The notes below the pieces were generated by a model, which worked only from the letters and a program-made list of their open reading frames with translations, did not search any database and was not told where the DNA came from. 64,000 bases of DNA from an uncultured Candidatus Actinomarina sp. (GTDB lineage Bacteria; Actinomycetota; Acidimicrobiia; Actinomarinales; Actinomarinaceae), in the NCBI GenBank assembly GCA_902596545.1, contig CACJUH010000002.1:1-64000 (forward strand), in the 5' to 3' direction. The position numbers were made by a program, and so were the translations under genes. Below, piece by piece: positions 14,304-18,366 of this stretch (position 1 is the first letter of the stretch; every line of letters starts with the position of its first letter).

Positions 14304-14617
14304 TGTTTGTTGAGGTTGTCTCACCAGAGGAGAATTGTTTCTCAGGAGATGCAACTATGGTTATTTCAAGAACTCCAAATGGTGAAATAGGAATTCTTGA
14401 AGGCCATGAACAAACAGTTGCAACTTTAGTTCCAGGTGGGCTAACCATTGAACACGACAATACAAGAACAAGCTTTGCAATCTCCGGTGGAATACTACAA
14501 ATAACTGGCGAAAAAGTAATTGTTCTTGGCGAACTTGTTGAAAAGATTGATGGAGATCACGAAAAAGCTGTTGAAGTTGGTCAAGAGTTAGCTAAAAAAG
14601 CCTTTCCAGAGGAATAA
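14303..14617 (+). CDS. atpC: F0F1 ATP synthase subunit epsilon, beta-barrel domain only or short form
   Basis: Rotor-associated subunit that couples the c-ring to gamma. The 104 residues cover the N-terminal ten-strand beta sandwich (with TPNGEIGILEGHEQTVATL). The C-terminal helical hairpin of E. coli epsilon (about 138 residues) is cut back to roughly one short helix, as in other actinobacterial short forms. The inhibitory function of the long hairpin is therefore probably limited (inference). It overlaps atpD and mca by one base each. Confidence 0.93.
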
Positions 14618-15447
14618 TGTCATCTCTTCTAGCATTTCACGCTCATCCAGATGATGAGAGCGTCTCGACTGGAGTTACTCTAGCAAAATATGCAGACGAG
14701 GGTCACAGGGTTGTAGTAGCTACAGCTACTGACGGTTCTGCTGGTGAAATTCATAATTATGATAATCCAGAAGAGCTTTTTCCTAAACTCGCTGAAATGA
14801 GAAGAAAAGAGTTAGAGGCAAGCCTTGAAGCTCTAGGTGTAAAAGAATATGAATGGATGGGGTTTAAAGATTCTGGAATGATGGGTACTAGTGAAAATGA
14901 TGATCCGGATTGTTTTTGGAGACAAAACTATTTTGATCCTGTTGGAAAACTCGTCGACATAATTAGAAAATATAAACCTGATGCTTTAATCACATATGAC
15001 CCTTTTGGTGGATATGGTCATCCAGATCATATTCAGACACATAGAATTGGGACCGCAGCCTTCTTTGCAGCTAGTGATTTAGATAAATTTCCTTTAAAAG
15101 ATGGTCAAGAAGTATGGATTCCAGAGCGTCTTTATTACAGTGCCTGGTCTAAAAAAAGAATGCAATCTAGAAGACAACAGATGTTTGATGCTGGAATTAT
15201 TTCAGAAGAAGAGTTCAATAGATTTAACCCAATTGGTAGTGAGCATGATGATATAGATGTTGAGGTTGATGGAACAAAATATGTTGAACATAAAATTAAT
15301 TCTATGAAAGCTCATCGAAGTCAGTTTAAAGATGACTGGTGGGGTTTTAATATTCCAGATGAACTTAAAGAAGACTTTTTAGGATATGAAAATTATATTT
15401 TAGCTTTTAATAGAGGAGATTGGTCTTCTCCATCTGAACTAATCTAG
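14617..15447 (+). CDS. mca: LmbE-family amidase, mycothiol S-conjugate amidase (Mca)-like
   Basis: Zinc-dependent amide hydrolase that, in actinobacteria, cleaves mycothiol conjugates so toxins can be exported as mercapturates; MshB of mycothiol synthesis is a close relative. The 276 residues have the zinc motif AHPDDE (His10, Asp13) near the start and HPDH (135-138) in GYGHPDHIQTH. HAHPDDESVSTGVTLAKYADEGHRV is close to Mca. I cannot exclude MshB from sequence alone. Mycothiol genes are an actinobacterial signature. It follows atpC with a one-base overlap and so is probably co-transcribed with the atp operon. Confidence 0.82.
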   Translation: MSSLLAFHAHPDDESVSTGVTLAKYADEGHRVVVATATDGSAGEIHNYDNPEELFPKLAEMRRKELEASLEALGVKEYEWMGFKDSGMMGTSENDDPDCFWRQNYFDPVGKLVDIIRKYKPDALITYDPFGGYGHPDHIQTHRIGTAAFFAASDLDKFPLKDGQEVWIPERLYYSAWSKKRMQSRRQQMFDAGIISEEEFNRFNPIGSEHDDIDVEVDGTKYVEHKINSMKAHRSQFKDDWWGFNIPDELKEDFLGYENYILAFNRGDWSSPSELI

Positions 15448-15450
15448 TTC

Positions 15451-15563
15451 ATGTCAGTTAAAGTTTTACTCGTAGAGGATGAAAAAAGTATCGCAGAGGG
15501 AATTATTTATAAGCTTAAAATGAAGGTTTAAAGGTCACCCATGTATATAATTCATACGGAATA
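15451..15563 (+). pseudogene. Remnant of a response-regulator receiver domain
   Basis: An ATG at 15451, 4 bases after the mca stop, opens a 26-codon frame that begins MSVKVLLVEDEKSIAEGIIY. This is the beta1 strand, the acidic phosphorylation-pocket pair (Glu-Asp-Glu) and helix 1 of an OmpR/CheY-type receiver domain. It stops at 15529-15531. Moving back one base at the AAAA run (15517-15520), the homology continues as NEGLKVTHVYNSYG up to 15560, just where the next gene starts. So roughly 37 residues of a regulator normally 220-240 long survive, with one apparent frameshift and loss of the rest. It lies directly before a phosphate transporter and PhoU-like gene, so a PhoB/PhoP-type origin is attractive but inferred. 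Confidence 0.72.
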
Positions 15564-16699
15564 TGAATTTAAAAGTCGTTAAAAACTTAAGTTTCGCATT
15601 ATTTTTCTTATACTTCTTTCTTGTATCTATAAAACTTCTTGAAAAGGGTATCAAAACACTTGGTGCAGAATATACTGATCAACTTTTTGAATCTGTTTCA
15701 AATCCATTTGCAGGATTGCTCGTTGGAATATTGTGTACTGTTTTGGTTCAATCTTCATCAGTTACGACATCTACAATTGTCGGATTAGTTGGTAGTGGAG
15801 TTTTAAGTCTTGAATATGCAATCCCTATGGTCATGGGTGCCAACATAGGGACAACTGTGACAAATACGCTTGTATCTTTCGGGCACGTACGAAGAGAACA
15901 GGAATTTAAGAGAGCGTTTGCTGCTTCAACTATGCATGACTTTTTCAACGTAATTGTTGTTATAATCTTATTTCCTCTAGATCTCATTACTGGATTTATT
16001 ACCAAAATGGCAGAAGACGGAACAGAGTTCATTTTGGCCACAGGCTTCACAGCTACAAAACCAGATAGCCCAATTAAAAATGCAATCAAGTGGGGATCTA
16101 ATAATATTCTTGATGGATTAAATGCAGTTCCATTTATTGGCAATCTCAATGAGAACTCTTATAGAGTCTATGCAGTGATCCTAATCATTATTGCAATAGG
16201 TTGTATCTTTTTGAGCTTGAGAAATGTTGTTAAGAATATGAAATCATTAATGCTCAATCAAATTGAGATGGGTCTTGATAGAGCTTTAGCTAAAGGTGGA
16301 GGCTTACTTGCTATCTTGATTGGAATATTAATTACTTTTTCAGTACAGAGCTCAAGTATCACAACATCCATACTTGTTCCGATTGTCGGTTCTGGAATAT
16401 TATCAATTGAGAACGCTTTCCCAATAACTTTAGGTGCAAATATTGGGACAACTATAACAGCGGTCTTAGCAAGTTTTGCTGTTGATAACTCGGCAGGTCT
16501 AACTATCGCTTTACATCATGTATTCTTTAATGCAATTGGAGTAGCGATCATTTATCCAATACAATTTATTAGAAATATCCCTGTAAATCTAGCTAAAAGC
16601 CTAGCTGTTGTTACTGCTAAAAGAAGATACGTAGCAATTTTATATGTTTTAGTAACTTTCTTACTGCTTCCATTACTTGGAGTAGTACTATTTAATTAA
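15563..16699 (+). CDS. Na/Pi cotransporter family protein (NptA-like)
   Basis: A 378-residue membrane protein with the duplicated QSSS signature of the Na/Pi cotransporter II family: VLVQSSSVTTSTIVGLVGSG in the first half and VQSSSITTSILVPIVGSG in the second, each followed by GANIGTT. These pseudo-symmetric repeats form the phosphate/Na+ pathway in the family. It is the only phosphate uptake gene in this window; no Pst ABC genes are seen. The ATG lies at the very end of the response-regulator remnant. A PhoU-like gene follows after 9 bases with its own AGGAG. Confidence 0.88.
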   Translation: MNLKVVKNLSFALFFLYFFLVSIKLLEKGIKTLGAEYTDQLFESVSNPFAGLLVGILCTVLVQSSSVTTSTIVGLVGSGVLSLEYAIPMVMGANIGTTVTNTLVSFGHVRREQEFKRAFAASTMHDFFNVIVVIILFPLDLITGFITKMAEDGTEFILATGFTATKPDSPIKNAIKWGSNNILDGLNAVPFIGNLNENSYRVYAVILIIIAIGCIFLSLRNVVKNMKSLMLNQIEMGLDRALAKGGGLLAILIGILITFSVQSSSITTSILVPIVGSGILSIENAFPITLGANIGTTITAVLASFAVDNSAGLTIALHHVFFNAIGVAIIYPIQFIRNIPVNLAKSLAVVTAKRRYVAILYVLVTFLLLPLLGVVLFN

Positions 16700-17349: not shown

Positions 17350-18366
17350 TTAACTTACGTCCCAAGTTCCTAAAGATCGAATAAGCTTATCTAGTTCTCC
17401 TTCGCCTTTTTGCTCTTTGGCGTTGTCGATTTGATCATGAACCTCTTCGGTAAAGGTATCTCTCTGGACTTTTCTAAATACACCAAGTGGTGTTGGACCA
17501 TATGGACCATGAGAAAGTCTAGATAAAGAGAAAGCAATTGATGGGTTCTCTTCATGAATGTTATGAACATAGATTTCAGATTCATCGACATCTTTAGTAT
17601 CAACAATTTGCGCAATACCATTTCTGATAACTACAGCTTTATGACCATCTTCTCCAAAAACTGTTTTCTCACCATGTACCAAATTTATTCTATTTGCTAC
17701 TTTGGTCTCTTTGTTGGTCAACTGTTCGAAGGCTTTATCATTGAAGACATTACAGTTTTGATAAATCTCTACAAAAGCAGAACCTTTATGATTTTTAGCT
17801 TCTTCTAAAATTCCTGCAGTGAGGTCTCTATCCATATCAATAGACCTTGCTACAAAAGTTGCTTCAGCACCTATTGCAAGACTCATTGGATTGAGTGGCA
17901 TCTCTACTGAACCAAAAGGTGAAGACTTGGTCTTTTTACCTTCCTCACTGGTAGGAGAGTACTGACCTTTAGTTAGTCCATAAATCTGATTATTAAACAT
18001 AAGAATTTTGATGTTTACGTTTTTACGTAGTGCATGAATTAAGTGGTTACCTCCAATCGATAGTGCGTCACCATCACCAGAGACAACCCAAACAGATAAA
18101 TCTGGATTTGATACTGATACACCAGTAGCTACTGCTGGTGCTCTACCATGAATTGAGTGAACACCATATGTGTTCATATAATATGGGAACCTTGCTGCAC
18201 AACCAATTCCAGAGACAAAAACTATTTTTTCTTTTGAAATACCCATCTCAGCCATGAAATTCTGGACTGATGCAAGGATAGTGTAGTCACCACAGCCAGG
18301 ACACCACTTGACTTCTTGGTCGCTTTGTAAATCAGTTCTTTTATAGGTGACAGGTATTTTACTCAT
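17350..18366 (-). CDS. korB: 2-oxoacid:ferredoxin oxidoreductase, beta subunit
   Basis: TPP-binding subunit of an enzyme that oxidatively decarboxylates 2-oxoglutarate (or another 2-oxoacid) to acyl-CoA while reducing ferredoxin. The 338 residues have WCPGCGD (Cys22, Cys25) and GIGCAARFP as cluster ligands, the TPP motif GDGDALSIGGNH and the FNNQIYGLTKGQYSPTSEEG substrate-binding block typical of KorB. Its start overlaps the korA stop by 8 bases. Which 2-oxoacid is used cannot be proven from sequence, although the KorA partner is of the 2-oxoglutarate type. Confidence 0.9.
   Translation of the reverse strand: MSKIPVTYKRTDLQSDQEVKWCPGCGDYTILASVQNFMAEMGISKEKIVFVSGIGCAARFPYYMNTYGVHSIHGRAPAVATGVSVSNPDLSVWVVSGDGDALSIGGNHLIHALRKNVNIKILMFNNQIYGLTKGQYSPTSEEGKKTKSSPFGSVEMPLNPMSLAIGAEATFVARSIDMDRDLTAGILEEAKNHKGSAFVEIYQNCNVFNDKAFEQLTNKETKVANRINLVHGEKTVFGEDGHKAVVIRNGIAQIVDTKDVDESEIYVHNIHEENPSIAFSLSRLSHGPYGPTPLGVFRKVQRDTFTEEVHDQIDNAKEQKGEGELDKLIRSLGTWDVS

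Follow-up and report, generated by a model that had tools for sequence, protein, structure and literature searches.

An apparent stump of a PhoB-like response regulator gene in a flexible phosphate island of Candidatus Actinomarina

Introduction

Why does a fragment of a response regulator gene stand directly before a phosphate transporter gene in an uncultured Candidatus Actinomarina? The fragment begins at position 15451 of the DNA stretch analysed here (the window: the first 64,000 nucleotides of contig CACJUH010000002.1), between an mca-like amidase gene and a gene for a Na/Pi cotransporter. The contig, C2, belongs to a 17-contig draft genome of 1.10 Mb with 34% GC and an estimated completeness of 94.65%. 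The original prediction, made from the window alone, described a fossil regulator of the PhoB type: 26 codons of a receiver domain, a -1 slip at an AAAA run that restores 15 more residues, and loss of everything else, together with phosphate two-component control. We compared the locus with same-genus assemblies deposited as Candidatus Actinomarina. Genus-wide counts refer to 42 species genomes; all assemblies are drafts, and many contigs terminate within the region of interest.

Results

The open frame that starts with the ATG at 15451 encodes 26 codons (MSVKVLLVEDEKSIAEGIIYKLKMKV) and ends with a stop codon at 15529–15531. A Pfam profile search with this 26-mer returned no match, the 38-mer read across the slip matched Response_reg weakly and below the cut-off (E = 0.081), and a PDB search gave no matches. 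We regard the DNA comparison with sister genomes as the decisive evidence for its identity. The segment 15451–15544 aligns to the first 95 nucleotides of an intact regulator gene at the same locus, with 93.7% identity in genome G025 (E = 1e-36) and 92.6% in G029 and G013. The real alignment scores 141 bits, and the best of 200 shuffled controls reached 34.6 bits. The full-length gene of these sisters encodes a receiver and a winged-helix domain; the G025 protein matches Response_reg with E = 6.6e-32 and Trans_reg_C with E = 1.1e-26.

The same alignments account for the broken frame. The window reads CTT-AAAA-TGAAGG where G025, G013 and G029 read CTT-AAAAA-TGAAGG, so the A run is one base short, and reading across the slip gives back the regulator residues NEGLKVTHV. 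The predicted slip thus stood as a one-base loss that restores about nine residues. The last six of the proposed 15, YNSYGI, are not regulator sequence: they are encoded by DNA upstream of the transporter, since positions 15546–15562 are identical (17/17) to the sequence that precedes the transporter ATG in G029. Regulator homology stops at 15544, after 32 codons, and the element is therefore a pseudogene and not a regulator; a complete receiver with its phosphoacceptor Asp and output domain is not present in the window. On this evidence, 15451–15544 is the 5′ end of an OmpR/PhoB-type response regulator gene, very probably a dead one.

The intact genomes reveal what the gene once accompanied. 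In G025, G013 and G029 the order is mca, regulator (235 amino acids, aa), kinase (231 aa), direct repeats resembling Pho boxes, Na/Pi transporter and phoU. The regulator gene starts within a few bases of the end of mca, and the kinase gene overlaps it. An intact regulator with an adjacent kinase therefore occupies exactly the spot at which the original prediction suggested looking for one. The kinase is a soluble HisKA-HATPase protein with no membrane or sensor segment (maximum 19-residue hydropathy, 1.17). The pair scores 216 bits against the PhoB model TIGR02154 (cut-off 296) and 208 bits against the PhoR model TIGR02966 (cut-off 334). Because these scores lie under the curated NCBIfam equivalog cut-offs, we call the pair PhoB/PhoR-like only. 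The regulator does lie next to a HisKA-HATPase kinase among pst, phoU and phosphate-transporter genes, and gene neighbourhood and family scores together make a phosphate role well supported, though not proven. The predicted PhoB type holds to that extent.

Relative to these three sisters, the window lacks a segment that held the remainder of the regulator, the entire kinase and the direct repeats AGTAAAC-N4-AGTAAAC. The length of the gap agrees across the three: about 1,352 bp against each by BLAST coordinates, and 1,351 bp by direct count on G029. The prediction that the rest of the regulator is gone is thus borne out, and the kinase and repeats went with it. The TATAAT hexamer of the transporter promoter survives immediately to the right of the junction (Table 1). 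We claim no repeat-based mechanism for this event, because identities at the breakpoint amount to 3 bp only. Neither a sigma-70-type promoter nor a terminator was found in 15400–15620, and read-through from upstream may therefore contribute to transporter expression.

The repeats themselves track the pair. AGTAAAC-N4-AGTAAAC occurs exactly once per genome in 13 genomes, and in 11 of the 13 it separates the kinase gene from the transporter gene. It is absent from all nine genomes that have mca joined directly to the transporter and no regulator–kinase pair (11/11 versus 0/9; Fisher P = 6e-6, a value that ignores relatedness). Known Pho boxes have the same 11-bp period, and these repeats are probably where the regulator acts.

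No other system appears to have taken over in the window's genome. The G025 kinase as query found no match there, a HisKA domain search found none, and the regulator query recovered the stump and one degenerate winged-helix fragment only. The best PstB-like match is 38% identical, compared with at least 84% for true PstB in the sisters, and Pst thus appears to be absent. No PhoB, PhoR or PstB homologue was found elsewhere in this genome, which answers the question of a second PhoR/PhoB pair. Two fragments on contig C7 were considered as residual regulators; neither is PhoB. One match (C7:41031-41234) falls inside a 107-aa receiver-like open reading frame (G000:C7:41020-41343); the other (C7:47342-47617) falls inside a 213-aa frame (C7:47339-47980) that encodes an OmpR-type winged helix behind a poorly conserved N-terminal half. 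Fragments of this kind are spread across the genus, although HisKA kinases are not.

Across the genus, the regulator is present in 21 of 42 genomes and a HisKA kinase in 22. Carriers of HisKA are the carriers of the PhoBR-like pair, with the exception of G002. Its HisKA protein is a second, separate kinase that also occurs in G015, G025 and G061; the island kinase of G002, like that of G017, is cut by a contig end. This second two-component pair (225-aa regulator, 422-aa kinase) is confined to four of the 42 genomes, and a fifth, G022, has a regulator of the 225-aa type near a contig end. Lopez-Perez et al. (2020, PMC7771536) stated that Ca. Actinomarinales have no two-component systems; this statement fails for about half of the 42 species genomes.

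The interval from mca to porB behaves as a flexible island: its flanks are constant, its phosphate gene contents alternate, and their pattern does not follow phylogeny. At least four versions can be distinguished. Version A contains pstSCAB-phoU1-regulator-kinase-transporter-phoU2. Version B lacks the transporter and phoU2 and has a more diverged kinase. Version C, found in G025, G013 and G029, is regulator-kinase-transporter-phoU2, and version D, to which the window belongs, retains the transporter and phoU2 only. The pstS of version B is a double-length gene with two PstS-like halves (613 aa in G064, L173:1642-3483). On an rpoBC tree of 34 genomes there are at least eight changes in regulator presence and at least 11 changes of island version. 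Version D genomes repeatedly adjoin regulator-bearing ones, such as G060 beside G013 and G007 beside G017 (99.2% rpoBC identity). Such a count does not by itself separate gain from loss. In five genomes the direction is loss, because regulator stumps are present: stumps of the same regulator, with end points that differ from the window's, also occur in G021, G007, G024 and G003. These stumps are decaying, with a nonsense codon in G021 and a lost start codon in G024 and G003.

At least four distinct transporter-only junctions can be told apart (window, G007-type, G021 and G033), and G032 and G060/G008 have additional, unassigned spacers between mca and the transporter. The G021 junction lies at a 9-bp repeat, AATTATTTA, that is present in G025, and in G033 the 8-bp repeat AATTTAAT marks the point where the version A pstS leader meets the transporter. 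Wherever a parent can be assigned, the break falls to the right of the repeats and to the left of the -10 hexamer. A single deletion ancestral to all transporter-only genomes was rejected, because the junctions differ and that of G033 derives from a pst-bearing version. Regulator loss is recurrent and recent, not one ancient event. The original prediction of lost phosphate two-component control is accordingly modified: no pair is left in this genome, but the loss is a repeated deletion and not one lineage-wide event.

One junction is common to G007, G024 and G003, whose transporters are 95–96% identical, compared with rpoBC identities of 79–82%. Apparently this deletion allele has passed from one species to another, and recombination is the best explanation of the pattern. 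A simple deletion at an 11-bp repeat did not fully explain this junction, which contains an extra ATTATTTATAT-like stretch.

Two island variants deserve separate mention. The mca–transporter spacer of G033 (L058) consists of a pstS leader that carries inverted TTTAC-type repeats and runs straight into the Na/Pi transporter gene; should recombination bring back a PhoB, phosphate control might return through this leader. In G015 (L185, C2:20000-31500), the genes mca, pstC and pstA, as well as the regulator gene at its 3′ end, are interrupted by several insertions of one or two bases, most of which lie in A or T runs; they reflect either homopolymer artefacts or ongoing decay.

The coordinates of the features are collected in Table 1. 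The mca product matches the NCBIfam Mca and MshB models below their cut-offs, and porB was named by sequence inspection.

Table 1. Features of the phosphate island in the window, and loci of the second two-component pair in other genomes
Feature	Position	Strand	Evidence
mca/mshB-like amidase (PIG-L family), island left flank	14617..15447	+	Pfam PF02585, E=2.7e-32; synteny in sisters
Response-regulator remnant, initial 32 codons with one base missing	15451..15544	+	92.6-93.7% identical DNA (95 columns) in the intact G025/G029/G013 regulators
26-codon open frame with stop	15451..15531	+	open reading frame
A4 run, frameshift inside remnant (A5 in intact sisters)	15517..15520	+	DNA alignments
Deletion junction	15544..15545	+	1,351-1,352 bp absent relative to G029, G025, G013
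TATAAT, -10-like hexamer of transporter promoter, 11 nt before ATG	15546..15551	+	conserved upstream of transporter in sisters
Na/Pi cotransporter, intact, 378 aa	15563..16699	+	PF02690, E=6.8e-41; NF037997 above cut-off
PhoU-domain protein (phoU2), 210 aa	16709..17341	+	PF01895, E=1.7e-13
2-Oxoacid:ferredoxin oxidoreductase beta subunit (porB), island right flank	17350..18366	-	open reading frame; right flank in sisters
Second two-component pair	G015:C1:131162-133099; G025:C22:7257-9161; G061:C14:37699-39603; G002:C23:65187-67060		

Discussion

The observations fit a simple history. The ancestral order would have been mca, a phoB-like gene, a phoR-like gene for a soluble HisKA-HATPase kinase, Pho-box-like repeats, the Na/Pi transporter and phoU2. 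As comparison with the sisters shows, a deletion of about 1.35 kb fused the regulator, at codon 32, to base -18 of the transporter; it took the remaining regulator codons together with the kinase and the repeats of 11-bp period, and spared the -10 hexamer. The separate loss of one base in the A run may pre- or post-date this event. Transporter and phoU2 would now be expressed without phosphate control from a bare core promoter, possibly with added read-through from the ATP-synthase and mca genes upstream. In this account the deletion in the window is one of several independent ones, and homologous recombination carries the alleles of the flexible island from one species to another. We hold this account as a whole (an excised pair, a stump left at the transporter, a flexible island) with high confidence.

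Several points weigh against it. The junction and the missing A are known from draft assembly sequence alone, and the closest sampled relative at the locus, G015 (transporter 97.7% identical), carries a pst-containing island. The immediate pst-less ancestor would thus be deduced from the stump and not from a near sister, the loss of phosphate regulation is something we infer, and the A could have been lost after the large deletion. An assembly in which reads of regulator-bearing and regulator-free strains were misjoined, conceivable in a 17-contig draft, seems to us extremely improbable: the junction is interior to a 190-kb contig, other assemblies contain independent mca–transporter junctions with stumps, and searches of the genome gave no second copy of the missing genes.

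It is also improbable, if slightly less so, that the remnant was retained for a function, either encoding a short leader peptide or serving as promoter or leader DNA for the transporter. It does lie directly before that gene, and 5′ pieces of the same regulator gene are kept in five genomes. The frame is, however, broken differently in the sisters, the retained lengths vary among genomes, G033 and G032 have no remnant, and the search of 15400–15620 gave no sigma-70-type promoter. A variant of the preferred account, which concerns where the deletion occurred and not what the stump is, holds that an already deleted allele was gained by homologous recombination across mca. The transfer seen for the G007/G024/G003 allele is comparable, and the stump resembles the regulators of the distant lineages G013 and G025, with G015, closest at the locus, being pst-containing. 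The right flank, however, is native, as transporter, phoU2 and porB are 96–98% identical to G015, and no sampled genome shares the window's junction. We consider import possible, with the odds somewhat against it.

Version C raises a further possibility. In G025 (L063:4114-6714), as in G013 and G029, the pair lies beside the Na/Pi transporter and PhoU, and no PstB was found elsewhere in the genome. Version C (G025, G013 and G029, probably also G017 and G002) may thus represent a phosphate two-component system without PstSCAB, in which a soluble kinase that lacks a sensor segment would, with its partner regulator, control only the Na/Pi transporter and a dedicated PhoU, and in which the transporter–PhoU2 pair would supply the phosphate signal. 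We put this circuit forward tentatively, and lean towards doubting it. If it is true, the window allele would be its regulator-free end state, of a kind that spreads naturally as a mobile deletion allele.

For an abundant, streamlined ocean lineage, the reported absence of two-component systems becomes a recurrent loss caught in progress. The stumps, the short-repeat junctions and the cross-species deletion allele form a natural series in which to ask under what conditions dropping nutrient regulation benefits a free-living cell, and this series can be tested against phosphate concentration in ocean metagenomes. A literature search found no paper on this Actinomarina locus. The phenomenon is known in kind; what this case adds are the direct fossils of repeated excision and the shared deletion allele.

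The pair resembles PhoBR of the E. coli type in that an OmpR-type regulator gene adjoins that of a HisKA-HATPase kinase near pst and phoU genes. In E. coli-type systems, as in the Actinomarina island, direct repeats of 11-bp period stand before a phosphate transporter. The Actinomarina pair differs by its sensorless kinase, its repeat unit AGTAAAC, its scores under the PhoB/PhoR equivalog cut-offs and the lack of pst genes in version C. The genomes described for Ca. Actinomarinales (PMC7771536) belong to the same order and are likewise streamlined (1.1 Mb, about 33% GC); our set departs from that description in its 21 genomes with the regulator and 22 with a HisKA kinase. A close parallel is the marine alphaproteobacterial HIMB59 clade (PMC10734472), whose flexible phosphate islands either contain or lack PhoR-PhoB; the versions that lack it go with high phosphate. 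There, too, a conserved site holds varying pst content plus or minus PhoR-PhoB, and content does not follow phylogeny. Actinomarina, in contrast, belongs to another phylum and has other flanks (mca and porB), its site can retain a Na/Pi transporter and its own phoU as the only phosphate genes, and its deletion stumps reveal how the regulator was lost.
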